Shown here piece by piece: positions 27,874 to 62,096 of a stretch of DNA of 64,000 bases. Each line of letters begins with the position of its first letter. Positions within the stretch are counted from its first letter, which is position 1. This DNA comes from Pseudaquabacterium pictum (GTDB lineage: Bacteria > Pseudomonadota > Gammaproteobacteria > Burkholderiales > Burkholderiaceae_C): positions 62,001 to 126,000 of the forward strand of contig NZ_BJCL01000013.1 of the NCBI RefSeq assembly GCF_005403045.1, given 5' to 3'. The notes below the pieces were generated by a model. It worked only from the letters and a program-made list of their open reading frames with translations, was not told the DNA's origin and did no database searches. Position numbers and translations under genes: made by a program.

Positions 27874-27928
27874 ACCACCACAGAACCCACCTCCGCCGGC
27901 ATCCGCCGGCGCTGCCTGGAGAGACCCC

Positions 27929-29134: not shown

Positions 29135-29153
29135 CAGCGCAGCCACCCGCCGC

Positions 29154-31633: not shown

Positions 31634-31634
31634 C

Positions 31635-33595: not shown

Positions 33596-33610
33596 ACTGG
33601 ACCCGCAACC

Positions 33611-34643: not shown

Positions 34644-37142
34644 ATGATCCAGCCTTCTCGTTCCCCGTTGCGCCCGAGCCCTGCGCCGCCTGGCCAGCGG
34701 CCCACGCCAGCGGCGGCACTGGCTTGGTGCACGCTGGCCTGCCTGGCGCTGGCAGGCTGCGGCGGTGGTGGTGGTGGCGGCAGCGAGCAGGCCCCAGCCG
34801 AGACCCCGGTGACCGCCCCCGCGCCAGCCCCTGCAGCCAGCAGCCCCACCGCCGCTGCCGAGAGTGATGTGGCGACGGTGCTGGCCGTGGCGAATGCCGC
34901 CGTCACTGCCGAGGCCATGGCCCAACAGGCCCAGCGCAGCCTGCAGGATGAGGCCGTGGCGGCCGCCCAGGTGGAATCGAGCCAGGCCGCTGCAGCCGCG
35001 CCCGTTCCGGCACCCGCACCGGCACCCGCGCCGGTGGCGACGCCAGCGCCAAGCCCGGCCCCCGCACCAGCATCCACGCCCGCACCGGCCCCCGCACCGG
35101 CACCTGCACCTGCGCCCGTTGCGGCACCCAGCCCCAGCCCGCTGGTGGTACGCGCCCGCGCCACGCTGGCCGGCGGTGTGGGCGCGCAGATGGTGGTGCG
35201 GGTGAACGGCCAGACCGTCGGCACCACCACGGTGACCAACACCCAGTTCACCAACTTCAGCTTCGCCGTGCCCACGCTGCCCGCCAACGCCCTGGTGGAC
35301 GTGGTCTTCACCAACGACGGCGGCGGCAATGGCGAGGACCGCAACCTGTTCGTGGCCTACCTGCAGCAGGGCAGCCAGGTGGTGATGCCCACCGCCAGCA
35401 ATGCCAGCATCGACCGAGGCGCCGGGGCTGCCGCCTTCGACGGCGCCGACACCGTGGCCGGCAGCGGCAACATCTACTGGAGCGCCGCCCTGCGCCTGAC
35501 CTGGCCGGCAGACACCGCCACGGCCGACGCCCTGCCGGCGCGTCAGCGCGATGCAGTGCGCTTCCTGCTGCAGGCCAGCTTCGGCCCGACGCCAGCCGAA
35601 GTGAATGCGCTGGCCACCAAGCCCTATGCCACCTGGCTGGGCGAGCAGATGGCCCTGCCCCACCAGGCCGACTACGTGAACGCGGTGCAGGCCCAGTTCA
35701 ACCAGGGCGATGCCTGGCGCCCGGGTGGTGCCAGCTACAGCCCGGCAGTGGTGGCCCAGACCTTCTGGAAGACCGCCGCCACCGCACCCGACCAGTTGCG
35801 CAAGCGGGTGGCGTTTGCGCTGCACCAGATCTTCATGGTGTCGCAGACCGATTCGAACCTGTGGCACCACGCCCGCGCAGTCGGCGCCTACCACGACCTG
35901 CTGAACAGGAACGCCTTCGGCAACTTCCGCCAGCTGATGGAAGACGTGGCCCTGAGCCCGGCGATGGGCATCTACCTGAGCCACCTGCGCAACCGCAAGG
36001 AAGACCCGGCCACCGGCCGGATGCCCGACGAGAACTTCGCGCGGGAGCTGATGCAGCTGTTCACCATCGGCCTGCATGAGCTGAACACCGACGGCAGCCC
36101 CAAGCGCAACGCCGGCGGCCAGCCGGTGGAGACCTACGGCATCGACGACGTGATGGCCCTGGCCAAGGTGTTCACCGGCTGGAGCTGGGCCTTTGCCGAC
36201 GGCGAGCTGACTGAGTCGAAGTTCCGCTGGGGCAGCCCGGTGATGACGGCCGCGGGCGACCAGCGCATCGACCTGCTGCCGATGAAGGCCTATGCCAGCC
36301 AGCATTCCACCGCGGCCAAGACACTGTTTGCGGGCAAGGCCTGGGCGGTCACCATCCCGGCCAACGGCACGGCCCAGGCCGATCTGAAGCTGGCACTGGA
36401 CGCGCTATTCAACCACCCCAATGTGGGCCCGTTCATCGGCCGGCAGCTGATCCAGCGGCTGGTGACCAGCCAGCCCACGCCGGCCTATGTGGCGCGGGTG
36501 GCGGCGATGTTCAACAACAACGGCAACGGCGTGCGCGGTGACCTGGCGGCCGTGGTGCGGGCCATCCTGCTGGACAGCGAAGCCCGCAACACGCCGCCCA
36601 ACAGCTTCGGCAAGCTGCGCGAGCCGGTGCTGCGGGTGGCCCACTGGGCCCGGGCGCTGGGGGCGCAAAGCACCTCGGGCCAATGGATGCTGGCCTGGGA
36701 GCTGGAGAGCAGCGGCCAGCGGGCCCTGGCCGCGCCGTCGGTCTTCAACCACTACCGGCCGGGCTACGTGCCGCCGAACACCAGCTTCTCGGCCATGGGC
36801 AGCACCGCGCCCGAGTTCCAGATCGTCAACGAGAGCAGCGTGGCCGCCTGGATCAACACCGCCGAGGGCATGGCCGGCAACGGCCTGGGCTGGACGGGCA
36901 GCACCAACGACGTGAAGGTGGACCAGGCCGCGCTGGGCGCGCTGGTGGCCGGCGGCAACCTGAGCGCGCTGGCCGACCACCTGGACCTGCTGCTGCTGGG
37001 CGGGCGCATGGGCGCCGCGCTGCGCGCTAGCCTGATGGATGTGGTGGCCGCCATCCCCGACGGCACCAACGCTGCCGCCAACCGCGCGCGGGCCGCCACC
37101 TTCCTGGTGCTGGCCTCGCCCGAGTTCGTCTCCCAACCCTGA
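34644..37142 (+). CDS. DUF1800 lipoprotein with one CBM60-like module
   Basis: An 832-residue exported protein of unknown function. The N-terminus ends in a lipobox (LALAGC, Cys 39) followed by a glycine run. A long Ala/Pro-rich spacer covers about residues 115-165. One CBM60-like carbohydrate-binding module starts at residue 167 (LVVRARATLAGG... NGEDRNLFVAYL). The DUF1800 domain runs from about residue 300 to the end, with LLQASFGPT, LRKRVAFALHQI, MGIYLSHLRNRKEDP, NFARELMQLFTIGLHEL and GPFIGRQLIQRLV. The DUF1501 gene follows after ten bases. It is a paralogue of the giant gene at 41449. Confidence 0.88.
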   Translation: MIQPSRSPLRPSPAPPGQRPTPAAALAWCTLACLALAGCGGGGGGGSEQAPAETPVTAPAPAPAASSPTAAAESDVATVLAVANAAVTAEAMAQQAQRSLQDEAVAAAQVESSQAAAAAPVPAPAPAPAPVATPAPSPAPAPASTPAPAPAPAPAPAPVAAPSPSPLVVRARATLAGGVGAQMVVRVNGQTVGTTTVTNTQFTNFSFAVPTLPANALVDVVFTNDGGGNGEDRNLFVAYLQQGSQVVMPTASNASIDRGAGAAAFDGADTVAGSGNIYWSAALRLTWPADTATADALPARQRDAVRFLLQASFGPTPAEVNALATKPYATWLGEQMALPHQADYVNAVQAQFNQGDAWRPGGASYSPAVVAQTFWKTAATAPDQLRKRVAFALHQIFMVSQTDSNLWHHARAVGAYHDLLNRNAFGNFRQLMEDVALSPAMGIYLSHLRNRKEDPATGRMPDENFARELMQLFTIGLHELNTDGSPKRNAGGQPVETYGIDDVMALAKVFTGWSWAFADGELTESKFRWGSPVMTAAGDQRIDLLPMKAYASQHSTAAKTLFAGKAWAVTIPANGTAQADLKLALDALFNHPNVGPFIGRQLIQRLVTSQPTPAYVARVAAMFNNNGNGVRGDLAAVVRAILLDSEARNTPPNSFGKLREPVLRVAHWARALGAQSTSGQWMLAWELESSGQRALAAPSVFNHYRPGYVPPNTSFSAMGSTAPEFQIVNESSVAAWINTAEGMAGNGLGWTGSTNDVKVDQAALGALVAGGNLSALADHLDLLLLGGRMGAALRASLMDVVAAIPDGTNAAANRARAATFLVLASPEFVSQP

Positions 37143-37152
37143 GGCCCTGCCC

Positions 37153-38580
37153 ATGACCGCCAACAGACGCGCCTTCTTCCGCGCCAGCGCCGGCCTGGCC
37201 GCCGCGGCCGCCGCCCCACTGGGCCCACGCCTGCACCTGCCCCTGGCCATGGGCCTGGCCGGCATCGGCGCCCTGGCCAGCCAGCGTGCCCAGGCCGCGG
37301 GCATCCACGACGGCTACAAGGCCCTGGTGTGCCTGTACATGGCCGGCGGCAGCGACAGCCACAACTGGCTGCTGCCCACCGACGACAGCAACCGCGCCAG
37401 CTATGCCAGCGCCCGTGGCGAACTGGCCTGGCCCACCGCGCGGGTGCAGGACATCGGCAACGGTGGCCAGGCCAGCGGCCGCAGCTTCGGCATGCCGGTG
37501 GAGCTGGGGCCGCTGCGCAACTGGTACCAGCAGGGCAAACTGGCTTGGCTGGCCAACGTGGGCACGCTGGTGCGGCCGGTCACCAAGGCCGATTTCCAGG
37601 CCGGCGTGGGCCTGCCGGCCAAGCTGTTCAGCCACAACGACCAGGCCGCCACCTGGCAGAGCCTGCAGCCCGAAGGCGCGCCCACCGGCTGGGGCGGGCG
37701 CATGGGCGACATCCTGATGGCGGCCAACGCGCAACCGGTGTTCACCGCCGTGTCGGCCAGCGGCAATGCGGTGTTCCTCAGCGGCAGCCGGGTGACGCAG
37801 TACCAGGTGGGCACCAACGGCCCGGTGATGATCAACGGCGCGCAGGACGGCTGGCGCGCCGGCAGCAGCGCCGTGCCCGGCGAGCTGCGCAAGCTGCTGG
37901 CCGGCAGCGGCGCCAATGCCTTCGAGGCCGAGTACCTGCGGGTGGTGCAGCGCAGCCTGGCGACCAGCGGCACACTGCAGGCCGCCCTGACCGCCGGCCC
38001 GGCGCTGGACTTGCCGACCACCGCCATCACCCTGCCGGCCGGCACGCCGCTGGCTCTGCACAACGACGCCCTGGCCCGCCAGCTGCGCATCGTGGCCCGC
38101 ATGATCGCGGCCGGCCCGGCCATGGGAATGAAGCGGCAGGTGTTCATGGTGAGCGTGGGCGGCTTCGACAGCCACAGCTTCCAGATGCGCGACCAGCCCC
38201 TGCTGATGGGCCGCGTGGCCCATGCAGTCGACTGGTTCATGCAGACCCTGCAGGCCCAGGGCCAGCTGAACAACGTGGTGCTGTTTTCGGCCAGCGACTT
38301 CGGCCGTGGCCTGGCCAGCAATGGCGACGGCTGCGACCATGGCTGGGGTGGCCACCACTTCGTGGCCGGCGGCGGCGTGAAGGGAGGCCGCATCCACGGC
38401 ACCATGGCGGTCACGGCACTGGGCACGGCCGATGACCTGGGCGCCGGGCGGTTGCTGCCGAGCACGGCAGTGACGCAGTACGCGGCCAGCCTGGGGGGGT
38501 GGATGGGGTTGGGGGCGTCGGACCTGGCCGCGGCACTGCCCAACCTGGGCACCTTTGGTGCGGCGCCTGCGTTGGCGTGA
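37153..38580 (+). CDS. DUF1501 protein, Tat-type signal, partner of DUF1800
   Basis: A 475-residue exported protein of the DUF1501 family, distantly related to the sulfatase/alkaline phosphatase fold. The N-terminus has a twin-arginine pattern (NRRAFFRAS) and a hydrophobic stretch. Conserved blocks are VCLYMAGGSDSHNWLLPTD, LFSHNDQAATWQS, GGFDSHSFQMRDQ and ASDFGRG...DHGWGGHHFVAGG, whose Asp/His residues could bind metal. DUF1501 genes commonly pair with DUF1800 genes; the joint function is not established. Located ten bases after its partner. Confidence 0.88.
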   Translation: MTANRRAFFRASAGLAAAAAAPLGPRLHLPLAMGLAGIGALASQRAQAAGIHDGYKALVCLYMAGGSDSHNWLLPTDDSNRASYASARGELAWPTARVQDIGNGGQASGRSFGMPVELGPLRNWYQQGKLAWLANVGTLVRPVTKADFQAGVGLPAKLFSHNDQAATWQSLQPEGAPTGWGGRMGDILMAANAQPVFTAVSASGNAVFLSGSRVTQYQVGTNGPVMINGAQDGWRAGSSAVPGELRKLLAGSGANAFEAEYLRVVQRSLATSGTLQAALTAGPALDLPTTAITLPAGTPLALHNDALARQLRIVARMIAAGPAMGMKRQVFMVSVGGFDSHSFQMRDQPLLMGRVAHAVDWFMQTLQAQGQLNNVVLFSASDFGRGLASNGDGCDHGWGGHHFVAGGGVKGGRIHGTMAVTALGTADDLGAGRLLPSTAVTQYAASLGGWMGLGASDLAAALPNLGTFGAAPALA

Positions 38581-38819: not shown

Positions 38820-39443
38820 ATGAGAAGCCGCGATCGCCACGGCGCTGCACTGGCCCTTGGAGGCTGGGCACTGGTTGCCACCATGGCACAGGCCGTTCCG
38901 GTGCAGATCAACCCGCCGCCCTTGGGTTTCAACACCGGTGCCACGGGCATCGAGGTGCAGCAACCGATGGGCCAAAGCTTCATCGCCAACGGCGACAGCG
39001 TGCACACGGTCGAACTGCAGCTGCTGAACATGAACATCTCGCTGGAACTGTCACAAGACCGCCTGGTGACGCTGGACCTCTACGAGGGCGTGGGCTTCCA
39101 GGGCGCGCACCTGGCCAGCCAGACCGTGGATGTCGATCGCATTCTCGGCAGGCTTGCCGGTACCCAGGGCCAAGTTGATTTCGCACTGGGTGGCGTGGCC
39201 GTTGTGCCCGGCCAACCCTACAGCTTTCAATTGCGCGCGGCCACAGCCCGCTTTGGCAGCGTGTGGTTTGCCGGCAATGCGTATGCCGATGGCCACGCCA
39301 TCCTACAGGGCGAGGCCTTCGACGATCCCGATCTGTACTTCGGCATCCGTGCGGTGTCCGAGCCATGCAGCGTGCTGCTGTTGACGGCGGGGCTCGTTCT
39401 GCTCCGCGCGCGGCACGTCACCAACAACCGGAAAGCGCCATGA
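38820..39443 (+). CDS. Secreted protein with a degenerate PEP-CTERM tail
   Basis: A 207-residue exported protein with a signal peptide (cleavage near AQA). A beta-rich central part of unknown function resembles 'choice-of-anchor' type extracellular proteins. The C-terminus has VSEPCSVLLLTAGLVLLRARH: a Ser-Glu-Pro in place of Pro-Glu-Pro, then a hydrophobic helix and basic residues, so a variant exosortase signal. The strong ribosome binding site supports the start. It overlaps the next gene by four bases (ATGA), so the two proteins are co-produced. Confidence 0.7.
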   Translation: MRSRDRHGAALALGGWALVATMAQAVPVQINPPPLGFNTGATGIEVQQPMGQSFIANGDSVHTVELQLLNMNISLELSQDRLVTLDLYEGVGFQGAHLASQTVDVDRILGRLAGTQGQVDFALGGVAVVPGQPYSFQLRAATARFGSVWFAGNAYADGHAILQGEAFDDPDLYFGIRAVSEPCSVLLLTAGLVLLRARHVTNNRKAP

Positions 39444-39994
39444 AAACCAACCGCCCCCTTTTGGCCCAACTGACTGTGGCCGCTTGCGCGAGCCTGGCCG
39501 CCATGCCCATTGCCCACGCGAAAACACGCACGTTCGAGTTCAGCTTTGACTGGGACGAAGGATCGTTGGCCGGGCAGGTGACGTCGGGGCGGTTCAGCTT
39601 CGACGCCAGCCTGTTCCACCCCACAAACTTTGTGCAGGCCGACCAGCTGTTCAGCCAGTTCTCCATCGAGATCGACGGTCGAACTTTTGATGAGACCCAG
39701 GCACCCGGCCACTATCTGCGGTTTCATCCGGACGGCAGGCTGCGCATGGTGGCCGTGGGCACCAACTGCAACGCCGTCACATGCTGGCTGGAAAACCCGC
39801 AGGACTTCACCATGGCCTGGAGCGGAGGCGACTTCGGCCAGGCGCAATATGCTCATGCGCCCAACGAAGCTTCGTACGCCGATGTGATCCATCTCACGGA
39901 GGTGTCCGCAGTGCCCGAGCCTGGCGCATGGGCCATGCTGCTGCTGAGCGGGCCGCTTGTGGTGGCGTGGTGGCGCCGCCGCCCAGCAGGCTAA
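39440..39994 (+). CDS. PEP-CTERM sorting-domain protein
   Basis: A 184-residue exported protein with a signal peptide (cleavage near AHA), a beta-rich body of unknown function and a clean PEP-CTERM signal: VPEPGAWAMLLLSGP, a transmembrane stretch, then WRRRPAG. Exosortases cleave this signal and anchor such proteins, usually in organisms making exopolysaccharide. No exosortase gene is in the window. The body has two cysteines (TNCNAVTCW) that may form a disulfide. Its ATG overlaps the upstream stop. Confidence 0.86.
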   Translation: MKTNRPLLAQLTVAACASLAAMPIAHAKTRTFEFSFDWDEGSLAGQVTSGRFSFDASLFHPTNFVQADQLFSQFSIEIDGRTFDETQAPGHYLRFHPDGRLRMVAVGTNCNAVTCWLENPQDFTMAWSGGDFGQAQYAHAPNEASYADVIHLTEVSAVPEPGAWAMLLLSGPLVVAWWRRRPAG

Positions 39995-40019: not shown

Positions 40020-40811
40020 TCACTTCGCCACTTTCACCCCGCACGTTGGGTCGCACAGGTGAAAGTTGAGACGCCATCTCGAAGCCTGGCGCATGCTGCA
40101 GAAACGCAGCAACGCCGCCCCCATCAGCCAGAGCAAGGCGGTGGCAGGCTCGGGCACCGGGCTAAGCTGGGCCACCAGGCGCACGTTGTCGAAGCGGGCG
40201 TAGGCGGTGCCATACGACGCGGCACCCCCGTCACCATCTTCTTCATAGGTTGTCCAGGCACTGAAGCCGGCGCCGAAGCCGGTGCTTTCCAAAGGCAGGA
40301 TGCCGGACGTGGTGAACAAGTCGCCCGCGAATCGAAGCGCTCCCGGCACATTCAACGCCACGCTGGCAACGCCCACGGTGCGCTTTTCACCTGTGACGGC
40401 CAGTTCGAGACTGTCGATGCGCCAACCGGGTGCTGCGTCGAAGCGCAGGTACTCGAAGCGGAAGTTGGCCGACACCTCGTGATCGCCGGAGACCCCGCTG
40501 CCACCAACCGACCCGAACATCGGCGTTGAAAACTCGAAACCGAAGCGGCCGCTGCCCAGGTCCAAAGGCTTCAGGTCAGGAAACTCGAAGGTGCCTGCGG
40601 TGTAGCCACCCACTTGGCCATCGACACCGTTCAGTTGGCTGTCGCCGTCGAAGCTGTACTGACCGGCTTCGAACACCACCACGAGCGGGCCCCGGTTGAA
40701 GATGCACTCCTCTCCTTCAGTTGCGGTGCAGTTGAACGCCACAGCTTCCGAGGGAATCAAGACGAATGCCCACGCTAGCGTGGCGGCAATGAGCGTGCTG
40801 CGAACTGTCAT
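40020..40811 (-). CDS. PEP-CTERM protein with an extended C-terminal tail
   Basis: A 263-residue exported protein: signal peptide (cleavage near AVA), a beta-sandwich-like body resembling extracellular PEP-CTERM adhesin-like proteins, then SPVPEPATALLWLMGAALLRF followed by basic residues. Unusually, about 25 further residues (ending CGVKVAK) follow the basic cluster, where the family normally stops. The gene is convergent with the preceding PEP-CTERM genes and divergent from the giant DUF1800 gene. Start ATG at 40811. Confidence 0.8.
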   Translation of the reverse strand: MTVRSTLIAATLAWAFVLIPSEAVAFNCTATEGEECIFNRGPLVVVFEAGQYSFDGDSQLNGVDGQVGGYTAGTFEFPDLKPLDLGSGRFGFEFSTPMFGSVGGSGVSGDHEVSANFRFEYLRFDAAPGWRIDSLELAVTGEKRTVGVASVALNVPGALRFAGDLFTTSGILPLESTGFGAGFSAWTTYEEDGDGGAASYGTAYARFDNVRLVAQLSPVPEPATALLWLMGAALLRFCSMRQASRWRLNFHLCDPTCGVKVAK

Positions 40812-41448
40812 GGCATCCCCCGGGTATGCGGTCAAGACGGCGCGGTGCAGGCGCTGCAACACCTGCGGAACCAAGTTTGCTCGGGCAACCGACCCATGCG
40901 CCATGTCTAAAGCTCTTCTAGCACCGCTGCCGCAGACCGGGAACAGGCTAAACCCGAGAACGCGCGGGATCGAGCGCCCGCTCCTGTCCATGCGACGTCC
41001 CTGCCCAGGACATGCAACCAGAGCGTGCTTGCACGCTTTGGCAGGCCGGCTGCACGGTGGAACCCAAACTCTTGGACAAGCCCGACGCCAATGCGTGCGC
41101 CCCACCGTGGCCTCGACCCAGCCGTTGCGCGCCGGGGTTCGAGGAGGCCAGCCATACTCTGCCGGCCTGCCGATCGTGCATGCCGTGATGGCGTGCTTCA
41201 CATTCTGAACAACCAGACACAACTTTCCACTCCGGCCTTCAACCTCTAGCGCCGAAAGCACGCTGACTGGCCTCTGTACGTCCATGGCTGCTTCGAGACC
41301 GCGAACACGGTGGCAAACAACAGCCGGACACAACTGGCCGGGACGCCCCCGCTCATCAGACATCAGACCGACCGATGACAGCGCGACCATTGGCGTCGCC
41401 GCTCCAGAACTGCGCCTCGACACACTGCCCCCAATTGGCCCTGCTTCC
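40812..41448. other. 637-base intergenic region, no supported gene
   Basis: Divergent gap between the PEP-CTERM gene at 40811 and the giant lipoprotein gene at 41449. It must contain both promoters. The open frames here are short or antisense, have no ribosome binding site, and show no recognisable protein family. I see no RNA gene, repeat or clear promoter box. Composition is slightly less GC-rich than the flanking genes. Confidence 0.5.
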
Positions 41449-44400
41449 ATGATCACCCTTGCTCAACGTGCTGCCCGGCTGGTGTGCACCGCAGTTGTCT
41501 CCTGCAGTCTGCTGGCGTGCGGCGGCGGCAACGAACCCGATCAATCGACACTGGTGCAGAGAGATTCTGCTGCCACAGCAGGGATGAAGCAGGCCTTGGC
41601 CGTGGCAGACAGCAACGAAGCACCGGGCACCATCCTGACGGTGCGCGCTCACGGCCGGCTGGCCGGCGGAGTAGGCCCGATCATGGAGGTGCTGGTCGAC
41701 GGTGTGCGCATCGGCACGACCGAGGTGCGCGACACCCAACCCACAGACTTCCGGTTCGCCAGCCCCGCACTGCGCCCAGGCGCCAAGGTCGATGTGGTGT
41801 TCACCAACAACGCGCTGGTGGGTACCGAAGACCGCGACCTGATCGTCACGCAGGTCACCTCCGCCAGCACCTACAGCCTGCCCACCGACCCCGGCGTGGT
41901 CTACGACGTCGGCAAAGACGCCGAGGCCTTCGACGGCATCAACGCTTCGGCTGGCCGAATCAACATGTCCAGCAGCGGCGCGCTGCGCTTCACCTGGCCC
42001 GAGCCCAACCTGACCGCCCAGATCACCGTGCGCGCCAGCGCCAGCCTGGCCGACAACACCGGCGCCCTGATGAGTCTGCGGGTCAACGGCGTGACCATCG
42101 GCCCCGTCGAAGTGCGCAGCACCACACCGGCCGACCACACCTTCACCGTCCCAGCCTTCTCCCAGGGCAGCCGCATCGACGTCGTCTACAGCAACGACGC
42201 CACCATCAACGGCCTGGACCGCAACCTCAACGTGCACTACCTGCGCGCAGGCACCACCGTCTTGCTGCCCAGCGCTGCCGGTGTGCTCTACGACCTCGGT
42301 GAGGGCACCGCTGCCTTCGACGGCGCCAACACCTCGCCCGGCCAGGCCACCCTGCACAGTAACGGCGCCCTGCGCGCGGCCTGGGCCGCCGCCAACATGA
42401 CCGACACCCTCACCGTGCGTGCCAGCGGCGTGGCCGCGGGCGATGTCTGGCCCCTGATGCAGGTCGTCGCCGATGGCATCCTGCTCGGTTCAACCGAGGT
42501 GCGCTCCACCGAGCCCGCCGACTTCCGCTTCGCCGCACTGCCCCTGCGCCCTGGCGCTCAGATCCAGGTCCTGCTGGCCAACCCGGGCAGCGCCAGCGGT
42601 GTCTCACGCAGCCTGAACGTCTCCTACGCCATCTCGGGCACCACCGTGCTGCGCCCGGGCGACGCAGGCGTCACCGCCAATGCCAGCGGCGCTGCCGGCG
42701 CATGGCCTGCCCCCAACCTCACCGACATGCTCACCGTGCGAGCCAAGGGTACCGTGGCCGCCAATGTGGGGGCCATCATGCAGGTGCTCGTCGACGGCAT
42801 CATGGTCGGCACCACCGAGGTGCGTAACACCGACTTCGCTGACTTCAGCTTCCCCGCGCTGCCCATGCAGCCCGGGCGCAAGGTCGATGTCGTGTTCACC
42901 AACAACGAATTCGTCGGCGGTGTCGATCGCGACCTCTTCGTCGCCTACCTGACCACGGCCAACACCGCTGTCCGCCCCACAGATCCAGGCGTCACCTACG
43001 ACGTGGGCAAGGGCAGCAAAGCTTTCGATGGGTTGGATTTGTCACACCACCGTGGGGCAATGTTTCACAGCGGTGCGCTGCGGTTCACCTGGCCGCAAGC
43101 CAATATCACCAGCACGCTCACCGTGCGGGCCAGCGGCACGGCCGCCGGCAATGTCGCCCCCATCATGCAGCTGTGGGTCGATGGCATCCTGGTCAGCAGC
43201 ACCCAGGTGACCGCCACGTACCTGACCGACCATGCCATGCTCTCGCCCGTGCTCAAGCCAGGCAGCAAAGTTGAACTGCTTCTGGCCAATCCAGGCACCG
43301 TGAACGGCGTTCAACGCGCGCTGGTCACCACCTATGCCATGGCAGGCAACACCGTGCTGCAGCAGGCCGACAGCAGTTCAACCACCGGCGGCGTCGAGTT
43401 GCGCGGCACCTGGCCAAGCGCCAACCTCACCAGCACCCTGACGGTGCGCGCTCACGGCCGGCTGGCCGGCGGAGTAGGCCCGATCATGGAGGTGCTGGTC
43501 GACGGTGTGCGCATCGGCACGACCGAGGTGCGCGACACCCAACCCACAGATTTCCAGTTCGCCAGCCCCGCACTGCGCCCAGGCGCCAAGGTCGATGTGG
43601 TGTTCACCAACAACGCGCTGGTGGGTACCGAAGACCGCGACCTGATCGTCACGCAGGTCACCTCCGCCAGCACCTACAGCCTGCCCACCGACCCCGGCGT
43701 GGTCTACGACGTCGGCAAAGACGCCGAGGCCTTCGACGGCATCAACGCCTCGGCTGGCCGAATCAACATGCCCAGCAGCGGCGCGCTGCGCTTCACCTGG
43801 CCCGAGCCCAACCTGACCGCCCAGATCACCGTGCGCGCCAGCGCCAGCCTGGCCGACAACACCGGCGCCCTGATGAGTCTGCGGGTCAACGGCGTGACCA
43901 TCGGCCCCGTCGAAGTGCGCAGCACCACACCGGCCGACCACACCTTCACCGTCCCAGCCTTCTCCCAGGGCAGCCGCATCGACGTCGTCTACAGCAACGA
44001 CGCCACCATCAACGGCCTGGACCGCAACCTCAACGTGCACTACCTGCGCGCAGGCACCACCGTCTTGCTGCCCAGCGCTGCCGGTGTGCTCTACGACCTC
44101 GGTGAGGGCACCGCTGCCTTCGACGGCGCCAACACCTCGCCCGGCCAGGCCACCCTGCACAGTAACGGCGCCCTGCGCGCGGCCTGGCCCGCCGCCAACA
44201 TGACCGACACCCTCACCGTGCGTGCCAGCGCCAGCCTGGCCGCCGGCATTGGTGCCGTGATGCAGGTACGTGTGGACGGCGTGGTTCTGGGGACCACGGA
44301 GGTGAAGTCCACCACGCCTGCCGACTACAGCTTTGCAACGTTGCCCATCACCGCAGACAGCCAGGTCGATCTTGTGTACACCAACGATGCGGTCATCAAC

Positions 44401-47373
44401 GGCGAGGACCGTAACCTCAACGTTTCATACCTCATTTCAAGCACAACGGTACTGCGGCCAACCGCTCCGGGCATCACCTACGACCTGGGCAGCGGCATCG
44501 CCGCCTTCGACGGCATCAACACCGTGGCCGGCAGGTCTGCCATGACGGCCAATGGCGCACTGCGTGCCGCCTGGCCCACGCCGAACCTGACCGACTCGCT
44601 CACCGTGCGCGCGCATGGCCGCCTGGCAGGCAATGTGGGACCCAGCATGGAACTGCATGTGGACGGTGTGATCGTGGCGCGTGCCGAAGTACGCGCCACC
44701 GAGCCCACAGACCACACGTTCGCCGTGCCGACACTTCTGCCCGGCACCAGGATCGATGTCGTATTGACCAACCATGCCGTGGTCGCGGGGGTTGACCGCA
44801 ACCTGGTCGTCGACTACCTGATTGCGGGCAAGACCTTCATGCTGCCCACCGCCCCGGGGAACAGCTATGACATTGGCACCGGTGCAGCGGCCTTCGACGG
44901 CCAGGACGTTCGCCCCGGCCAGCGAACGCTGAACAGCAACGCCGCGCTGCGCATGCAGTGGGCACAACCCAACATCACCGACCACCTGATCGTGCGCGCC
45001 CATGGTCAACTTGCTGGCAGTGCGGGGCCGGTGATGCAGGTGTGGGTGGACGGCGTGGCCGTGAGCAGTGTCGAGGTGCGCAGCACCACCCCCGCCGACT
45101 ACATCATGCCCGTGCCCCCGTTGAAGGCAGGCAGCAGGATCGACGTTGCCTACACCAACGACGCTGTGGTGAATGGTGCAGATCGCAACCTGAACGTTGC
45201 CTATCTGCTGGCTGGCTCGACGTACATGTTGACGACCTCACCACTGGTGCAGTATGACCTGGGCCTGGGCGCGGCTGCGTTCGACGGGCTCAACGTACTG
45301 GCCGGACAACCGGGCATGGCCTTGAATGGCGCACTGCGCCTGATCTGGCCCGCGGCCAACATCCAAGACAGCCTGCTGGTGCGCGCCAGCAGCACTTTGG
45401 CAGCCGGCGTGGGTGCGTTGATGCAGGTGCGGGTGGACGGGGTGATCGTGGGCACGGTGGAGGTGCGCAGCAGCACACCGGCCGACCATATGTTCACCGT
45501 GCCGCGCTTGACAGCAGGCAGCCGCATTGATGTGGCATTCCTGAACAACGCCGTCATCAACGGTGAAGACCGCAACTTGTTCGTGCAGTACCTGAAGGTC
45601 GGCAATAACACCCTGATGCCCACGGCCCCGAGCGTGACACGTGACTATGGCGTGGGCGAAGCGGCGTTCGACAGCAACGACACCACCGCAGGCGACAGCA
45701 CGCTCTACAGCAGCGGGGCCCTGCGCTTCACCGTGCCTGCGCTGCCGGCAACCGATGCCACGCTGACAGCACAGTACGCCGCCGCTCGCTTCCTGCAGCA
45801 GGCCACCTTCGGGCCCACCGCAGCCGAAGTGCAACGCTTGAGCACACTGCCCCTGAGCACGTGGCTGGCAGAGCAGATGGCCATGCCCGCGCAACCCGAC
45901 TTTGTGCGCTACGTTCAGGGCAAGTTCGACCTGGGCGATGACTACCGGCCCAAAGGCAAGAACTACAGCATTGCCTGGCCAGCCCAGCGCTTCTGGGCGA
46001 CTGCCGCCAACGGTCCCGACCAGCTTCGCAAGCGGGTGGCGTTTGCACTGCACCAAATCCTGATGGTGTCGCAGGCCGACTCGAACTTGCATGAGCATAG
46101 CCGTGCCTATGCCAGTTACCTGGACATTTTGAACCAGCATGCCTTCGGCAACTACCGCAACCTGCTGGAAGCAGTGTCCCTGAGCCCGGCCATGGGCATC
46201 TATCTGTCGCACATGCGCAATCGCAGGGAAGACCCGATCTCTGGCCGCCTGCCCGACGAGAACTTTGCGCGTGAACTGATGCAGTTGTTCACGATCGGTC
46301 TGCACGAGTTGAACAGCGACGGCAGCCCCAGGCTAGACAGCAGCGGCCAGCCCATCGAAACCTACGACAACCAGGATGTGATGGCACTGGCCAAGGTGTT
46401 CACCGGGTTCAGCTGGGCGTTTCCGGATGCACAGCTGACCGACCCTGCATTCCGCTGGGGCCGGCCAGACTACCTTACCGCAGCCGACCAGCGCGTCGAT
46501 GTGCTGCCGATGAAGGCCTACCCTGGCCAGCATTCCGCGGCCGAGAAGCGCTTGTTTTCAGGCAAGCCCCATGCCATGGTGATACCTGCCAACAGCACTG
46601 CACAGGACAGCGTTCGCCTGGCACTGGATGCCTTGTTCATGCACCCCAACGTGGGCCCGTTCATCGGCCGCCAGCTGATCCAGCGGCTGGTGACCAGCCA
46701 CCCCAGTGCAGGCTACGTGGCGCGGGTGGCTGCCGCGTTCAACAACAACGGTGCGGGCGTGCGCGGCGACATGGCAGCCGTGGTGCGCGCCGTTCTGCTG
46801 GACGCGGAGGCCCGCAACCCACCGGCGGATGCGATCGGCAAACTGCGTGAACCGGTGCTGCGAGTGACGCAATGGATGCGCGGCATGGACGCGAAGTCGC
46901 AGTCCGGCCAGTACCTGATGGCCATGGAACTGGCCAACCAGGGCCAGCGTGCCTTGTATGCACCTTCGGTGTTCGGCTACTTCAGGCCCGGATTCGTGCC
47001 GCCCAACAGCGCCTTCTCAGGCAACAGCATCACCGTGCCCGAACTGCAGATCGTCAACGAGTCCACCACCGCCCACTGGGTCAACCTGGCGCTGGCCATG
47101 GCCAGCGGCGGCCTGGGGCAGAGTGACACCGGAAGGGACGTGAGCAGCAACCTGGAACCCTTGGTTGCGCTGGCGACGGCAGGCAACATCGACGCCCTGA
47201 TTGAACGGCTGAATCTGCTGATGATGGCAGGGCGCATGAGCCCGGGTCTGCGGCAGGATCTGCTGGACGCCATTGCCGACATCCGCGGCACGACGGCAAG
47301 CAGCCATCTGAACCGGGCCCGCGTGGCACTCTTCCTGACCATGGCTTCGCCTGAATACCTGGTGCAACGCTGA
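41449..47373 (+). CDS. Giant lipoprotein: eleven CBM60-like modules plus DUF1800
   Basis: A 1974-residue exported protein. The lipobox LLAC (Cys 24) is followed by a short linker. Eleven tandem modules then start near residues 63, 192, 321, 428, 557, 664, 793, 922, 1051, 1180 and 1309. Each has TVRA..LAGGVGP.MQV.VDG, a DVV.TN core, DRNL and usually YDVG...AFDG, resembling CBM60 calcium-dependent carbohydrate-binding modules. The period is 129 residues except the third and fifth (107). A DUF1800 domain fills about 1440-1974. The start follows the lipobox logic; the frame is open 55 codons upstream. It overlaps the next gene (TGATG). Modules 1-2 and 6-7 are near-identical. Confidence 0.88.
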   Translation: MITLAQRAARLVCTAVVSCSLLACGGGNEPDQSTLVQRDSAATAGMKQALAVADSNEAPGTILTVRAHGRLAGGVGPIMEVLVDGVRIGTTEVRDTQPTDFRFASPALRPGAKVDVVFTNNALVGTEDRDLIVTQVTSASTYSLPTDPGVVYDVGKDAEAFDGINASAGRINMSSSGALRFTWPEPNLTAQITVRASASLADNTGALMSLRVNGVTIGPVEVRSTTPADHTFTVPAFSQGSRIDVVYSNDATINGLDRNLNVHYLRAGTTVLLPSAAGVLYDLGEGTAAFDGANTSPGQATLHSNGALRAAWAAANMTDTLTVRASGVAAGDVWPLMQVVADGILLGSTEVRSTEPADFRFAALPLRPGAQIQVLLANPGSASGVSRSLNVSYAISGTTVLRPGDAGVTANASGAAGAWPAPNLTDMLTVRAKGTVAANVGAIMQVLVDGIMVGTTEVRNTDFADFSFPALPMQPGRKVDVVFTNNEFVGGVDRDLFVAYLTTANTAVRPTDPGVTYDVGKGSKAFDGLDLSHHRGAMFHSGALRFTWPQANITSTLTVRASGTAAGNVAPIMQLWVDGILVSSTQVTATYLTDHAMLSPVLKPGSKVELLLANPGTVNGVQRALVTTYAMAGNTVLQQADSSSTTGGVELRGTWPSANLTSTLTVRAHGRLAGGVGPIMEVLVDGVRIGTTEVRDTQPTDFQFASPALRPGAKVDVVFTNNALVGTEDRDLIVTQVTSASTYSLPTDPGVVYDVGKDAEAFDGINASAGRINMPSSGALRFTWPEPNLTAQITVRASASLADNTGALMSLRVNGVTIGPVEVRSTTPADHTFTVPAFSQGSRIDVVYSNDATINGLDRNLNVHYLRAGTTVLLPSAAGVLYDLGEGTAAFDGANTSPGQATLHSNGALRAAWPAANMTDTLTVRASASLAAGIGAVMQVRVDGVVLGTTEVKSTTPADYSFATLPITADSQVDLVYTNDAVINGEDRNLNVSYLISSTTVLRPTAPGITYDLGSGIAAFDGINTVAGRSAMTANGALRAAWPTPNLTDSLTVRAHGRLAGNVGPSMELHVDGVIVARAEVRATEPTDHTFAVPTLLPGTRIDVVLTNHAVVAGVDRNLVVDYLIAGKTFMLPTAPGNSYDIGTGAAAFDGQDVRPGQRTLNSNAALRMQWAQPNITDHLIVRAHGQLAGSAGPVMQVWVDGVAVSSVEVRSTTPADYIMPVPPLKAGSRIDVAYTNDAVVNGADRNLNVAYLLAGSTYMLTTSPLVQYDLGLGAAAFDGLNVLAGQPGMALNGALRLIWPAANIQDSLLVRASSTLAAGVGALMQVRVDGVIVGTVEVRSSTPADHMFTVPRLTAGSRIDVAFLNNAVINGEDRNLFVQYLKVGNNTLMPTAPSVTRDYGVGEAAFDSNDTTAGDSTLYSSGALRFTVPALPATDATLTAQYAAARFLQQATFGPTAAEVQRLSTLPLSTWLAEQMAMPAQPDFVRYVQGKFDLGDDYRPKGKNYSIAWPAQRFWATAANGPDQLRKRVAFALHQILMVSQADSNLHEHSRAYASYLDILNQHAFGNYRNLLEAVSLSPAMGIYLSHMRNRREDPISGRLPDENFARELMQLFTIGLHELNSDGSPRLDSSGQPIETYDNQDVMALAKVFTGFSWAFPDAQLTDPAFRWGRPDYLTAADQRVDVLPMKAYPGQHSAAEKRLFSGKPHAMVIPANSTAQDSVRLALDALFMHPNVGPFIGRQLIQRLVTSHPSAGYVARVAAAFNNNGAGVRGDMAAVVRAVLLDAEARNPPADAIGKLREPVLRVTQWMRGMDAKSQSGQYLMAMELANQGQRALYAPSVFGYFRPGFVPPNSAFSGNSITVPELQIVNESTTAHWVNLALAMASGGLGQSDTGRDVSSNLEPLVALATAGNIDALIERLNLLMMAGRMSPGLRQDLLDAIADIRGTTASSHLNRARVALFLTMASPEYLVQR
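41634..42427 (+). repeat. Internal duplication, copy 1 (CBM60-like modules 1-2)
   Basis: A 794-base stretch repeated 1803 bases downstream at 43437-44230. Line-by-line comparison shows five base differences, far fewer than between any other modules. The duplication is in frame (601 codons apart) and points to recent recombination or gene conversion. Confidence 0.95.
43437..44230 (+). repeat. Internal duplication, copy 2 (CBM60-like modules 6-7)
   Basis: Second copy of the 794-base repeat, with five differences from 41634-42427. Sequence similarity drops abruptly at both ends, within modules rather than at their borders, which fits homologous exchange. Confidence 0.95.
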
Positions 47374-48800
47374 TGACGACCTCAACCCATTCACGCCGAC
47401 ACTTCTTGCGTGCGGCAAGCGGCCTGGCCGCAGCCGCCGGGCTGCGCGGCGGCGCGCCCCTGGCCACCGGCCTAGCGGGCATGGCCGCCATGGCAGCCCA
47501 GAGCAGCCAGGCAGCCGACCTGTCTGGCCCCTACCGCGCGCTGGTGTGCCTCTTCATGCACGGCGGCAACGACAGCCACAACTGGGTGGTGCCCACCGAC
47601 ACCACGGGCTACGCAGATTACGCCAGGGCGCGCCAGGAACTGGCCTGGCCAGCACACAAGCTGCTGCCCATCAGCGTGAGCGGCCAGGCTGCCGGCCGCA
47701 GCTTTGGCATGCCTGAAGAACTGGCACCGCTGCGCCGATGGTACGAAGCCGGCCAGGCTGCCATCGTCGCGAACGTGGGCCCGTTGGTGCGCCCGATCAC
47801 AAAACCGGAATATGCCGCCGGCATGGGCTTGCCCGCCAAGTTGTTCTCGCACAACGATCAGGCATCGACCTGGCAGAGCCTGTCGCCCGAAGGCGCACGG
47901 TCGGGCTGGGGTGGGCGCCTGGGCGACATCTTGATGTCGGCCAATGCCTACCCGGTGTTCACCGCAGTGTCGGCAACAGGCAACGCCGTGTTCCTATCGG
48001 GCAGCCAGGTCACCCAGTACCAAGTTGGCGTGGAGGGGCCGGTGGCGCCATCCGGCGTCAGCAGCACCAGCGTCTTCGGATCGGCCACGGCACCGGCCGC
48101 ACTGCGGCGCATGCTGGCCAACGTGGGCACCAGCCCATTGCAGGCCGAGTACGTGCGCATTCTGCAGCGCGGCATGTCAGCCAACACCATCCTGCAGACT
48201 GCATTGCCCGGCGTGAGCGTGCCGCCCATCCCTGCCACCACCATTCCATTTGGCACGGGCGGCAGCTACAAGCTGGACGAGGACGACCTGACCAAGCAGT
48301 TGCGCATGGTGGCGCAAATGGTTGCCGCGGGGCAGACGCTGGGCATGCGCCGCCAGGTGTTCATGGTGTCGATCGGCGGGTTCGACAGCCATGCGAACCA
48401 GATGCGCGACCAGCCGGCACTGATGGCCCGCGTGGCCAACGCCATCGACTACTTCCTGACCAGCATGGGCAGCCTGGGGATGTTGAACAACGTTGCCTTG
48501 TTCACCGCGTCAGACTTCGGCCGTGCGCTGCTGAGCAATGGCGACGGCAGCGACCACGGCTGGGGCAGCCACCACTTCGTGGCGGGCGGCATGGTGGCGG
48601 GGCGCAACATCCATGGCCGGTTTCCAAGCACCGCCCTGGGTGGCACCGACGACATTGGGTCCGGCCGCCTGCTGCCATCGCAATCGGTCACACAAATGGC
48701 TGCACCGTTGGGCCGCTGGATGGGCTTGTCATCGTCTGACTTGGCAACTGTGCTGCCAGGCATTGCAAACTTCGACGCAAACGCGCTCCGCTTTCTGTAG
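47373..48800 (+). CDS. DUF1501 protein, Tat-type signal, partner of the giant DUF1800 protein
   Basis: A 475-residue paralogue of the DUF1501 protein at 37153, identical in length. The N-terminus SRRHFLRAASG is a good twin-arginine signal. Conserved blocks are VCLFMHGGNDSHNWVVPTD, LFSHNDQASTWQS, GGFDSHANQMRDQ and ASDFGRA...DHGWGSHHFVAGG. The ATG overlaps the stop of the giant gene by one base, so the pair is translationally coupled. Tat export suggests it folds, perhaps with metal, before crossing the inner membrane. Confidence 0.9.
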   Translation: MTTSTHSRRHFLRAASGLAAAAGLRGGAPLATGLAGMAAMAAQSSQAADLSGPYRALVCLFMHGGNDSHNWVVPTDTTGYADYARARQELAWPAHKLLPISVSGQAAGRSFGMPEELAPLRRWYEAGQAAIVANVGPLVRPITKPEYAAGMGLPAKLFSHNDQASTWQSLSPEGARSGWGGRLGDILMSANAYPVFTAVSATGNAVFLSGSQVTQYQVGVEGPVAPSGVSSTSVFGSATAPAALRRMLANVGTSPLQAEYVRILQRGMSANTILQTALPGVSVPPIPATTIPFGTGGSYKLDEDDLTKQLRMVAQMVAAGQTLGMRRQVFMVSIGGFDSHANQMRDQPALMARVANAIDYFLTSMGSLGMLNNVALFTASDFGRALLSNGDGSDHGWGSHHFVAGGMVAGRNIHGRFPSTALGGTDDIGSGRLLPSQSVTQMAAPLGRWMGLSSSDLATVLPGIANFDANALRFL

Positions 48801-49149: not shown

Positions 49150-50460
49150 ATGAAAATCAGTATCTTCGGCCTCGGTTATGTAGGCGCCGTCTCGGCAGGC
49201 TGTCTGGCGTCAGATGGACACACGGTCATCGGAGTCGATCCGAACGCGACCAAAGTGGATCTGATCAACAGCGGCGTGACACCCATCATCGAGAAAGACA
49301 TCGGCGGAATGATTGAGCATGCCGTCAAAGCTGGCACGCTACGGGCGACTGTCTCGGTGAAGGATGCTGTCCTGGCGACAGACCTATCATTGATCTGCGT
49401 CGGAACACCATCGCAACTCAATGGCAACCTTGACCTTTCTTACGTGAGGCGTGTCTGCGAGGAGATCGGGGCAGCCATGCGCGACAAGGAGGGCTTTCAC
49501 GTGGTTGTGGCACGATCAACGATGCTGCCAGGATCCATGCGCAACCTGGTGATCCCCACCTTGGAACAAGCGTCCGGTAAGACTGCGGGTGTTGATTTCG
49601 GCGTCTGCAACAACCCCGAGTTCTTGCGTGAAGGTACGGCTGTATACGACTACTACCATCCGCCCAAGACAGTGATCGGTGAAACCGATAGCCAGGCCGG
49701 GCAACGGCTGGTGGATCTATATGCATCCCTCGATGCCCCGATGATTCGCACGACCGTCGAGGTTGCGGAGATGGTGAAGTATGCCGATAACAATTGGCAC
49801 GCTGTCAAGGTCGCCTTTGCCAACGAAATCGGCAACATCTGCAAGGCCGTCGGGATCGACGGCCACCAGGTGATGGACATCTTCTGCCAAGACACCAAGC
49901 TCAATCTGTCGGCCTATTACATGAAACCGGGGTTTGCGTTCGGTGGATCGTGTCTGCCCAAGGATGTGCGCGCGCTGACCTACAAGGCCCGGAGCATGGA
50001 CCTGGATTTGCCCTTGTTGAATGCCGTGCTGCCATCGAACGCGAGGCAAGTTCAGCGCGCCATCGAGATGGTCACCAGCAAGGGCCACCGCAAGGTCGGC
50101 GTTTTGGGCTTCGCCTTCAAGGCGGGCACCGACGACCTGCGCGAATCACCCATGGTCGATGTCATCGAGCACCTGATCGGCAAGGGCTTCGACCTGCGCC
50201 TGTTCGACCGCAACGTCAACATGGCGGCGCTGACTGGTGCCAACCGCGACTACATCCTCAACCACATCCCGCACATCTCGAAGTTGATGGTGAACTCGGT
50301 GGAAGAGGTGATGGCGTTTGCCGACACGGTCGTCATCGGCAACGGCGCAGCGGAATTCAAGGCCGCGGCATTGAACCCGCGCGATGGCCAATGTGTCGTC
50401 GACTATGTGCGCATTGCCGATCGCACGAGCGGCCCCGCTTACGATGGAATCTGCTGGTGA
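49150..50460 (+). CDS. algD: GDP-mannose 6-dehydrogenase
   Basis: Oxidises GDP-mannose to GDP-mannuronic acid, the committed step of mannuronate-containing polymers. The 436-residue length equals that of Pseudomonas AlgD, and the catalytic cysteine falls at the same position, C268 in GGSCLPKD. GLGYVGAVSAGCLASDGH at residues 7-24 is the NAD motif, with NNPEFLREG and FAFKAGTDDLRESP downstream. It is preferred over UDP-glucose dehydrogenase because of these AlgD-specific blocks. The first half is less GC-rich than the surrounding genes. The stop overlaps the following GTG start (GTGA). Confidence 0.93.
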   Translation: MKISIFGLGYVGAVSAGCLASDGHTVIGVDPNATKVDLINSGVTPIIEKDIGGMIEHAVKAGTLRATVSVKDAVLATDLSLICVGTPSQLNGNLDLSYVRRVCEEIGAAMRDKEGFHVVVARSTMLPGSMRNLVIPTLEQASGKTAGVDFGVCNNPEFLREGTAVYDYYHPPKTVIGETDSQAGQRLVDLYASLDAPMIRTTVEVAEMVKYADNNWHAVKVAFANEIGNICKAVGIDGHQVMDIFCQDTKLNLSAYYMKPGFAFGGSCLPKDVRALTYKARSMDLDLPLLNAVLPSNARQVQRAIEMVTSKGHRKVGVLGFAFKAGTDDLRESPMVDVIEHLIGKGFDLRLFDRNVNMAALTGANRDYILNHIPHISKLMVNSVEEVMAFADTVVIGNGAAEFKAAALNPRDGQCVVDYVRIADRTSGPAYDGICW

Positions 50461-51674
50461 CTGAGCTCGTCGAAACGCAACGGCCGGCGCATGGCCGGCG
50501 TGTGCTGATCCTGGTTGAAAACCTGCCGTCGCCGTTTGACCGCCGAGTCTGGCAAGAGGCCACAACGCTGGTAGCCCATGGCTACCAAGTGTCGATCATC
50601 TGCCCCACCGGCAAGGGCTACGAACTGCCGTACGAGCTAATCGACTCGATTCACATCTACCGGTACAACCTGCCCAACGAGGGCGAGGGTGCGCTGGGGT
50701 ACCTGCTGGAATATTCTGCTGCCCTGTGGCACACCTTCCGGCTGGCGTACAAGGTGCGGCGGGAGCGAGGCTTCGATGTGATCCAGGCCTGCAACCCGCC
50801 TGATCTGCTGTTCCTGGTGGGAGGTTTTTTCAAGCGTTTCTATGGCAGCCGCTTCGTGTTTGACCACCACGACATCAATCCCGAACTGTACGAAGCCAAG
50901 TTCGGCCGGCGCGACCTATTGTGGAAGCTGATGGTTTGGCTGGAGCGTCAGACATTCCGCACCGCTGATGTGTCGATTGCCACCAATGAGTCATACCGGC
51001 AGATTGCGCTTGAGCGGGGCGGCATGCGCGCCGACCGCGTGTTTGTTGTACGCAGCGGGCCGAAGCTTGATCGCCTGAAGATTCAACCACCCAAGCCGGA
51101 ACTGAAGCGGGGCAGACGCTTCCTTGTCGGCTATGTCGGGGTGATGGGCAAGCAGGAAGGCATAGATTACCTGCTGCGGGCGGCACGGCACATCGTGCAT
51201 GAACTGAAACGCGATGATGTCCACTTCGGGCTTGTGGGCGGCGGCACCTCGCTTGAAGAGATGCAGCAGTTGGCGGGGCAACTAGGACTGGCCGATCACG
51301 TCACTTTCACGGGGCGGGTGCCGGACGCGGAGTTGTTGGACATGCTTAACACCGCTGACGTCTGCGTCAACCCCGATGTGGCCAACGACATGAACGACAA
51401 ATCGACCATGAACAAGATCATGGAGTACATGGCCCTGGGCAAACCGATCGTGCAGTTCGACTTGGCAGAGGGCCGCTTTTCTGCCCAGGAAGCCTCGCTC
51501 TATGCAGCGCGCAATGATGCCGTTGACATGGCACACAAGATCGTAGCGTTGCTGGACGATCCGGAACGGCGCCTGCACATGGGGCAATTCGGGCGCAACC
51601 GCGTGGAACACGAACTGGAATGGCGCTATGAGGTGCCAAAGCTATTGCGCGCCTACGAAACGCTGTGGACCTGA
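50457..51674 (+). CDS. Family 4 glycosyltransferase
   Basis: A 405-residue GT-B fold glycosyltransferase. The N-terminal LVENLPSPFDRRVWQEA motif is common in exopolysaccharide GT4 enzymes. The C-terminal donor domain has VGYVGVMGKQEGIDYLL and the ExxxxxE-like DKSTMNKIMEYMALGKPIV. The start is a GTG at 50457 overlapping the algD stop; the frame is open far upstream but that is antisense-like. It may transfer the mannuronate made by AlgD or another sugar onto the lipid-linked unit; specificity is unknown. Confidence 0.9.
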   Translation: MTELVETQRPAHGRRVLILVENLPSPFDRRVWQEATTLVAHGYQVSIICPTGKGYELPYELIDSIHIYRYNLPNEGEGALGYLLEYSAALWHTFRLAYKVRRERGFDVIQACNPPDLLFLVGGFFKRFYGSRFVFDHHDINPELYEAKFGRRDLLWKLMVWLERQTFRTADVSIATNESYRQIALERGGMRADRVFVVRSGPKLDRLKIQPPKPELKRGRRFLVGYVGVMGKQEGIDYLLRAARHIVHELKRDDVHFGLVGGGTSLEEMQQLAGQLGLADHVTFTGRVPDAELLDMLNTADVCVNPDVANDMNDKSTMNKIMEYMALGKPIVQFDLAEGRFSAQEASLYAARNDAVDMAHKIVALLDDPERRLHMGQFGRNRVEHELEWRYEVPKLLRAYETLWT

Positions 51675-51676
51675 CG

Positions 51677-52840
51677 ATGGCTGCACCGAAGGCGCCGGCG
51701 CTGGCACACAAGCCTTCCCAAGACGCGACGGAACGACGCCCGCATGGGGCCATTTGGGCTCAACAGGGCCCAGCCCTGCTGCTGGCGCTGGTGCTTGGCG
51801 GCCAGGCATTGCCTGCGCTCGCCAACAATTTCAAGCTGCCCTACGAAGTGGCGGCCATGCGTGCGATGCCGGTTGATCCGTCCGTGCGCCCTCGGCCTTG
51901 TCCGGACTTGGTGAATCCGCCATTCCAACTGCAGCATGGCTCGCGCTACAAGCGGGGAGACGGCTCGATTTCCCAGGTCGACCCGCAGTTGGCCGCCGCC
52001 GAAATCGAGGCCACGCGGCCGGTTCGCCAGTTCAACCGCATCATTGCGGACATGGCCAGCATCTCGCTGAAGGCGCCGCAGTTTGCGACTGCTGCCATGG
52101 AGTGCGTTGTTCGGCATCTCGACCACTGGGCCAGCGGAAGGGCCTATCTGGGAGAGAACTCCAACCAGGGCGAGTACGAGAAGAAGTGGGGATCCATCAC
52201 CTACGCACTGGCCTACATCGAGAGCCGGCAGGCAGCGACACCGGCACAACGCACCCGCATCGAGGCCTGGCTGTCACGCATGGGGCACGATGTGCATGCG
52301 TTCTACAGTCGGCCGGCCATCTGGGGGCTGAACAGCCGCAACAACAACCATGCCTACTGGGCTGCACTGTCTTGTGCTGCCGTCGGCATGGCGAGCAATG
52401 ACCAGGAGTTGTTCCACTGGGGGATGTCTCGCTTCGTCGCGGCGCTGGACGACATCGACCCGTCCGGCCATCTTCCGCTGGAACTGCGCCGCGGGCCACG
52501 CGCGTTGGAGTACCACGCCTTCGCACTCGGACCCTTGCTGCTGCTGGCGGCGATTGCAAAGGCCAATGCGGTCACCGTGCCTGCGCCTGGTCTGGCGGCC
52601 TTGCACCGCCTGGCCGACAGCGTGCGGGCCGGCATGTTGGATCCGGATGTGTTCACCAGGCTCACTGGCCAGAAGCAGACGATCGTGAAACCGCGCCCTG
52701 CGGAGTGGGCCTGGGCTGAACTCGCCTTGCATATTTGGCCAGACAGCACGCTGGATCGCCAGATCGCAAAAGATAGGCCGTACTTTCATATTTGGCTTGG
52801 AGGAGATCTGAGCATAAGATATGCAAATCGGCCCCGATAG
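51677..52840 (+). CDS. algL: Alginate lyase (polysaccharide lyase family 5)
   Basis: A 387-residue AlgL-type mannuronate lyase of the periplasm. The four catalytic residues known for Pseudomonas aeruginosa AlgL (N201, H202, R249, Y256) correspond here to N224, H225, R272 and Y279, all shifted by exactly 23. An N-terminal hydrophobic signal segment (LLLALVLGGQALPALA) follows a 35-residue hydrophilic leader, longer than usual. The ATG at 51677 is chosen; a GTG at 51665 is possible. It probably trims or clears polymannuronate during export. Confidence 0.93.
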   Translation: MAAPKAPALAHKPSQDATERRPHGAIWAQQGPALLLALVLGGQALPALANNFKLPYEVAAMRAMPVDPSVRPRPCPDLVNPPFQLQHGSRYKRGDGSISQVDPQLAAAEIEATRPVRQFNRIIADMASISLKAPQFATAAMECVVRHLDHWASGRAYLGENSNQGEYEKKWGSITYALAYIESRQAATPAQRTRIEAWLSRMGHDVHAFYSRPAIWGLNSRNNNHAYWAALSCAAVGMASNDQELFHWGMSRFVAALDDIDPSGHLPLELRRGPRALEYHAFALGPLLLLAAIAKANAVTVPAPGLAALHRLADSVRAGMLDPDVFTRLTGQKQTIVKPRPAEWAWAELALHIWPDSTLDRQIAKDRPYFHIWLGGDLSIRYANRPR

Positions 52841-52879
52841 TGCATCAAACCAGACCAAAACCAACAGAAATATAATTTA

Positions 52880-53782: not shown

Positions 53783-53909
53783 AGCTTATTTGATTTAAAC
53801 GCAACAGATCAAAATTTCATCGCATAAAACCAACAAAGCAATCTCAGTGCTACTTTCGACTTTCAAGACCGGCCTAGCATGCAAGGAGGGAGACGCTTAA
53901 GCAAACGGG

Positions 53910-59516: not shown

Positions 59517-59521
59517 GGCGG

Positions 59522-62076: not shown

Positions 62077-62096
62077 GGATGTTCTCCAGCCGACAT

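Follow-up and report, generated by a model that had tools for sequence, protein, structure and literature searches.

The window analysed here, a stretch of 64,000 nucleotides from an Aquabacterium host, a freshwater or sludge bacterium, carries genes for an exopolysaccharide (EPS) together with two paralogous DUF1800/DUF1501 gene pairs, one of which contains a giant lipoprotein gene:

26428-34492, + strand: conserved 5' part of the EPS locus, with a WcaJ-type initiating transferase, an EpsL-like outer-membrane protein and sugar-nucleotide genes (Pfam/NCBIfam)
34644-37142, + strand: paralogous lipoprotein with an Ala/Pro-rich linker, one CBM60 and DUF1800 (Pfam)
37153-38580, + strand: DUF1501 partner of this short paralogue (Pfam)
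39440-39994, + strand: PEP-CTERM protein between the pairs, C-terminus VPEPGAWAMLLLSGPLVVAWWRRRPAG
40020-40811, - strand: PEP-CTERM protein between the pairs; PF07589 match in the frame 40020-41456, likely start 40811
41449-47373, + strand: giant lipoprotein gene, eleven CBM60 modules and DUF1800 (Pfam, lipobox), open from 41284
47373-48800, + strand: DUF1501 partner of the giant, with an RR-type (Tat-like) signal; its ATG overlaps the TGA of the giant by one base
49150-62076, strand not specified: species-variable EPS part, with an AlgD-type GDP-mannose dehydrogenase, glycosyltransferases, alginate-lyase-family and heparinase-family proteins and Wzy (Pfam/NCBIfam)

The sugar-nucleotide genes are ManC, RmlA, RmlD and an RmlB/GMD-type gene (Pfam, NCBIfam), and EpsE, EpsF, EpsG, exosortase B and EpsI lie just past the window end; on this contig some 17 kb separate exosortase B from the giant pair. 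EpsE, EpsF, XrtB, EpsI and the initiating transferase score above the cut-offs of their models (TIGR03028, TIGR03017, TIGR03113, NF045609 and TIGR03023), and for EpsL (TIGR03014, 198.8 versus a cut-off of 275) and EpsG (TIGR03029, 269.4 versus 313.8) the best models remain below cut-off. Its gene content marks the locus as an exopolysaccharide cluster of the exosortase-B (XrtB/Eps), Wzx/Wzy type with PEP-CTERM genes; the placement of the giant inside a polysaccharide locus, claimed in an earlier note made from the sequence, is thus supported and sharpened to the XrtB/Eps type by the matches to EpsE, EpsF, XrtB and EpsI. The cassette between the two DUF1800/DUF1501 pairs (38820-39443, 39440-39994 and 40020-40811) encodes three PEP-CTERM-type proteins, two of them clear and one degenerate. 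The biosynthetic locus also encodes members of the alginate-lyase and heparinase II/III families (51665-52840 and 56518-58986), which possibly serve polymer turnover.

The EpsE-EpsF-EpsG-EpsH(XrtB)-EpsI set with PEP-CTERM genes is common to the PEP-CTERM/exosortase EPS loci described previously (Haft 2006, PMC1569441; Aquincola floc formation, PMC9850573), which also share envelope proteins implicated in EPS holding. Unlike the proteins of those loci, the giant combines a lipoprotein signal with CBM arrays and lacks a PEP-CTERM tail, and it is missing from the published descriptions of such loci that we found.

The giant gene lies in an open frame of 2029 codons (41284-47373), whose likely start, from the frame and the lipobox, is the ATG at 41449. 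Read directly from the sequence, a hydrophobic signal is followed by the lipobox LLAC-GGG, and secretion of the protein is predicted. Lipoboxes are also present in the giants of G002, G004, G017 and G020 (G000 being the source genome, and the other G numbers other genomes of the genus). Given the plain signal peptide (AQA-A) that replaces the lipobox in the giant of G012, the predicted lipid anchor is not universal. The giant is organized as follows:

41449-41520, + strand: lipoprotein signal peptide, MITLAQRAARLVCTAVVSCSLLAC followed by GGG; lipobox LLAC at codon 24 (Cys codon 41518-41520)
41628-42423, + strand: recent internal duplication, first copy (DNA self-comparison)
41632-42021, + strand: module 1, long (130 residues), loop motif N..DRD
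42022-42405, + strand: module 2, long (128), DRN
42406-42729, + strand: module 3, short (108), motif lost (P..SRS)
42730-43113, + strand: module 4, long (128), DRD
43114-43434, + strand: module 5, short (107), motif lost (P..QRA)
43431-44226, + strand: recent internal duplication, second copy (offset 1803 bp)
43435-43824, + strand: module 6 (130), near-identical to module 1 by module comparison
43825-44208, + strand: module 7 (128), near-identical to module 2 by module comparison
44209-44595, + strand: module 8, long (129), DRN, C-type position (alignment, module tree)
44596-44985, + strand: module 9, long (130), DRN
44986-45369, + strand: module 10, long (128), DRN
45370-45759, + strand: module 11 (130), terminal cap module, in a cap clade across species (module tree; AlphaFold2 model with DUF1800)
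45760-47373, + strand: DUF1800 domain (Pfam), predicted all-helical, pLDDT 92

CBM60 (PF16841) matches the giant in 11 stretches, with 436.8 bits against a curated Pfam cut-off of 28.2, and DUF1800 (PF08811) matches residues 1502-2026 with 287.5 bits over model positions 1-418 of 419. Since each module singly clears the curated cut-off except module 5 (25.2 versus 28.2), the count of eleven is far above chance expectation. Weak Pfam matches (Big_7, HcyBio and others) were put down to chance. A Pfam scan of the whole genome found CBM60 at this locus only. The likely start and the lipobox agree with the lipoprotein placed here by the earlier note, whose domain content is confirmed, as is the 129-residue period with two short modules: lengths are 128-130 residues except in modules 3 and 5. 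What that otherwise correct description lacked is the higher-order repeat. Pairwise identity between modules is 36-59%, but modules 1-2 and 6-7 are 98-99% identical, and the corresponding DNA repeat, ~780 bp long and offset by 1803 bp, shows 97-100% identity per 60-bp block. The array of the giant is therefore duplicated at a higher order and is neither a simple 129-residue tandem nor a row of eleven equal modules.

Searched against the sequences of the PDB, a single module met only chance CoA-transferase matches and the module alignment met none; structural comparison was therefore needed. AlphaFold2 models were obtained for modules 4-5-6 (pLDDT 90, pTM 0.81) and for module 11 together with DUF1800 (27-sequence alignment; pLDDT 92, pTM 0.90). 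The model of a long module superposes on vCBM60 (2xfd) with a Z of 15.0 and an rmsd of 2.8 over 104 of 109 residues, the next unrelated match having 6.8; a second structural comparison with 2xfd gave a Z of 14.5 over 104-105 residues, and 2xhh and 2xfd rank first in the Foldseek PDB list for the cap-module model, in which DUF1800 was folded jointly with module 11 and for which the list contains no DUF1800 fold relative. Single modules are thus confidently predicted to adopt the vCBM60 β-sandwich fold, in agreement with the CBM60-like identity first proposed for them. On the strength of this structural match, the 129-residue unit is predicted to be one complete CBM60 domain, including the C-terminal segment AFDG...NGALR, which falls outside the 91-position Pfam model.

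The modules share with CBM60 (PF16841; vCBM60 2xfd/2xhh) the sequence family, the fold and a loop, TN(D/N)...R(N/D), which aligns to TND...RD of vCBM60; in contrast to vCBM60, the giants carry 11-16 copies, higher-order units and degenerate short members, with no attached glycanase, and the DRN(D)L loop of their modules is longer. The TND...RD residues are those that we take to form the calcium/ligand loop, in line with the presumed metal-ligand assignment and numbering of vCBM60. The equivalent N/D residues are kept in 9/11 modules of the giant and lost in modules 3 and 5. Eight short modules are found across three species (modules 3 and 5 in G000 and in G002; modules 3, 5, 10 and 15 in G012), and all eight are devoid of both the TND...RD-aligned residues and the C-terminal segment. 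Among long modules, N/D at the second site is kept in 37/42, and the five exceptions include modules 2, 7 and 12 of G012 and module 2 of G002, all in position two of the unit. The association of motif loss with short modules has a Fisher p of 2e-6, a value inflated by shared descent, and as the short modules fall into two clades it represents two loss events rather than eight. From these sequence features, the short modules look like non-binding spacers.

Regarding the ligand, vCBM60 chelates equatorial O2 and O3, and O2 of mannuronate is axial. The AlgD-type gene is real (it matches a solved enzyme over 436/436 residues), within a locus that reads as Wzx/Wzy-type with EpsE/F, but G012 retains the giant without the AlgD-type region, which makes a polymannuronate-specific ligand unlikely. 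The locus of G012 has a syntenic frame with a different middle block, and conservation extends neither to the AlgD-type gene nor to the remainder of the downstream region; the giant is therefore kept although the polymer probably varies from species to species. Within positions 49150-64000 of the window, the glycosyltransferase/Wzy block has a G+C of 0.61, down from 0.71, and lacks conservation in G012; this block is species-variable and probably exchanged.

Comparison with relatives has also indicated how the array grows. The giant of G012, a seven-contig genome of the same genus, has 2616 codons and 16 modules by a home-made profile (15 by Pfam), arranged as a 624-residue five-module unit repeated three times, mostly with >90% DNA identity between copies, and followed by a terminal cap module. 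Module counts are thus 2x5+1 here and 3x5+1 in G012, a 5n+1 rule supported by two complete genes only. The module tree contains cross-species clades for the C-position, the short E-position and the cap modules, as well as a B-position clade with G012, G002 and G004 but not G000; the A and D positions are partly resolved only. These cross-species clades suggest that the ordered five-module unit is older than the species concerned and was amplified later. Contigs stop within the giant gene in the draft genomes of G002, G004, G017 and G020, and within the short paralogue in G006; because the repeat array breaks draft assemblies, the array family is probably under-counted. In another draft genome, G010, a short CBM60-DUF1800 gene (L047:4940-7582) is broken by an in-frame TAG, through decay or sequencing error.

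The regular period, together with an array length that is species-specific and changes block-wise, could be expected of a molecular ruler setting the chain length of the polymer, a role that had been raised for the giant. Nevertheless, the species differ by an entire five-module block, the recent blocks are near-identical copies, as repeat expansion predicts, and chain length already has a determinant in the locus, EpsF, alongside an EpsG-type kinase, so that we regard a ruler as highly improbable.

CBM60 is present in 10/21 genomes of the genus, in 1/80 other relatives (a weak match), and in six other genomes of a class sample (n=369) and five of a phylum sample (n=398). Elsewhere it occurs in one or two copies, fused to xylanase-type proteins, an S8 peptidase, or RTX-like or β-helix proteins. 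Outside Aquabacterium these three sets yielded no comparable array, and a scan of viral contigs yielded none either; a contig scan of genomes with two poor peptide patterns found four loci. The architecture is real, conserved and unusual, and is made of already known domain families. It is not unique to this genome: CBM60 is present in nearly half of the genomes of the genus, and in those loci that were read it is carried by DUF1800 proteins. XrtB occurs in 7/10 genus genomes with CBM60 and 6/11 without it (Fisher p 0.66), which is no significant correlation in a set where drafts are incomplete. Three of the proteins found (L055, L056 and L057) are subtilisin-like peptidases of family S8 that end in a CBM60 of the 126-residue DRNL/AFDG type, like the array modules. 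Two other class members (L059 and L060) encode DUF1800 proteins with the same two domain families, but in reverse order, with a single weak CBM60-like segment C-terminal to DUF1800 and no array. On a plasmid of Azospirillum brasilense Sp 7, L090:5947-8757 encodes two CBM60 modules and a right-handed β-helix; the gene table lists no gene for this interval, and the query has matches in 46 Azospirillum plasmid records.

Characterized CBM60 domains bind xylan, galactan and cellulose oligosaccharides, and 2xfd is itself a cellobiose complex, both of which would suit an adhesin or scavenger that binds foreign plant or algal polysaccharide (xylan, galactan) and lies in an EPS locus as part of a shared biofilm programme. 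We consider this quite unlikely, as CBM60 is restricted to the EPS locus in its own genome and EPS sugar-nucleotide genes adjoin the CBM60-DUF1800 genes in G000, G006, G010, G012 and G017.

The main rival explanation, compatible with a tether, is that the array is a targeting device, in which DUF1800 and DUF1501 form an enzyme that modifies or trims the EPS and the CBM60 modules hold it on its substrate, as in xylanases. The fusion of CBM60 elsewhere to enzymes (xylanase-type, S8 peptidase) and a β-helix protein argues in this direction, as do the DUF1800 polar residues E297, N298, R301, E302, H388 and H425, strictly conserved in 27 divergent members, the invariant motif DHGWG.HH of DUF1501, and the presumed closeness of DUF1501 to alkaline-phosphatase-like enzymes. 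However, the enzymes found carry only one or two CBM60 modules, eleven to sixteen being excessive, and we know of no catalytic activity for DUF1800 or DUF1501, nor did sequence searches find PDB relatives of either. We hold a targeting role to be rather unlikely.

The DUF1800 domains of the giant and the short paralogue are 63% identical, and the giant and its DUF1501 gene are, by their overlap, translationally coupled. DUF1800 is present in 20/21 genomes of the genus, in up to nine copies, and the source genome holds one more DUF1800/DUF1501 pair, its third (L089:1804-4752, G000:C21), which is without CBM60 and has transporter-like neighbours and no evident EPS context. The pair is therefore not confined to EPS loci and need not be a polysaccharide system. 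Known DUF1800/DUF1501 pairs, among them those co-operonic with bacterial chitin synthases (PMC5122149), likewise consist of adjacent DUF1800 and RR-signal DUF1501 genes; unlike them, the present pairs are two, paralogous, in an XrtB EPS locus, and their DUF1800 carries N-terminal CBM60.

We propose, at about an even chance, that the giant is a lipoprotein whose multivalent, calcium-dependent binding of carbohydrate retains or organizes the EPS of its own XrtB/Eps locus at the envelope. The N-terminal lipid, presumably in the outer membrane, would anchor and present a long chain of CBM60 sandwiches, nine of which would grip the polymer through the calcium/ligand loop, the two short modules serving as spacers, and avidity would rise through amplification of the five-module unit. 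The C-terminal DUF1800, beside the last module, may pair with the co-translated RR-signal DUF1501 protein. Such a tether role is plausible. In the case of the related Aquincola, overexpression of the PEP-CTERM protein PepA lowers released and raises bound EPS (PMC9850573), by analogy the nearest experimental precedent for protein-dependent EPS retention.

More tentatively, the giant may exemplify a novel type of envelope polymer-holding device, in which an expandable CBM60 array, its binding and non-binding modules following a set order, would grow by five-module units and so tune avidity and reach for the cell's own EPS. Coupled to a DUF1800/DUF1501 activity, the device would be a calcium-dependent counterpart, in Gram-negative bacteria, of repeat-tuned surface adhesins. 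We consider this wider reading possible though doubtful. For the retention of exosortase-type EPS on cells, which is the basis of wastewater-sludge flocs, the giant offers a concrete candidate whose parts can be tested, and it provides a rare handle on the widespread DUF1800/DUF1501 pairs of no assigned function, by linking one subgroup of them to sugar-binding modules.
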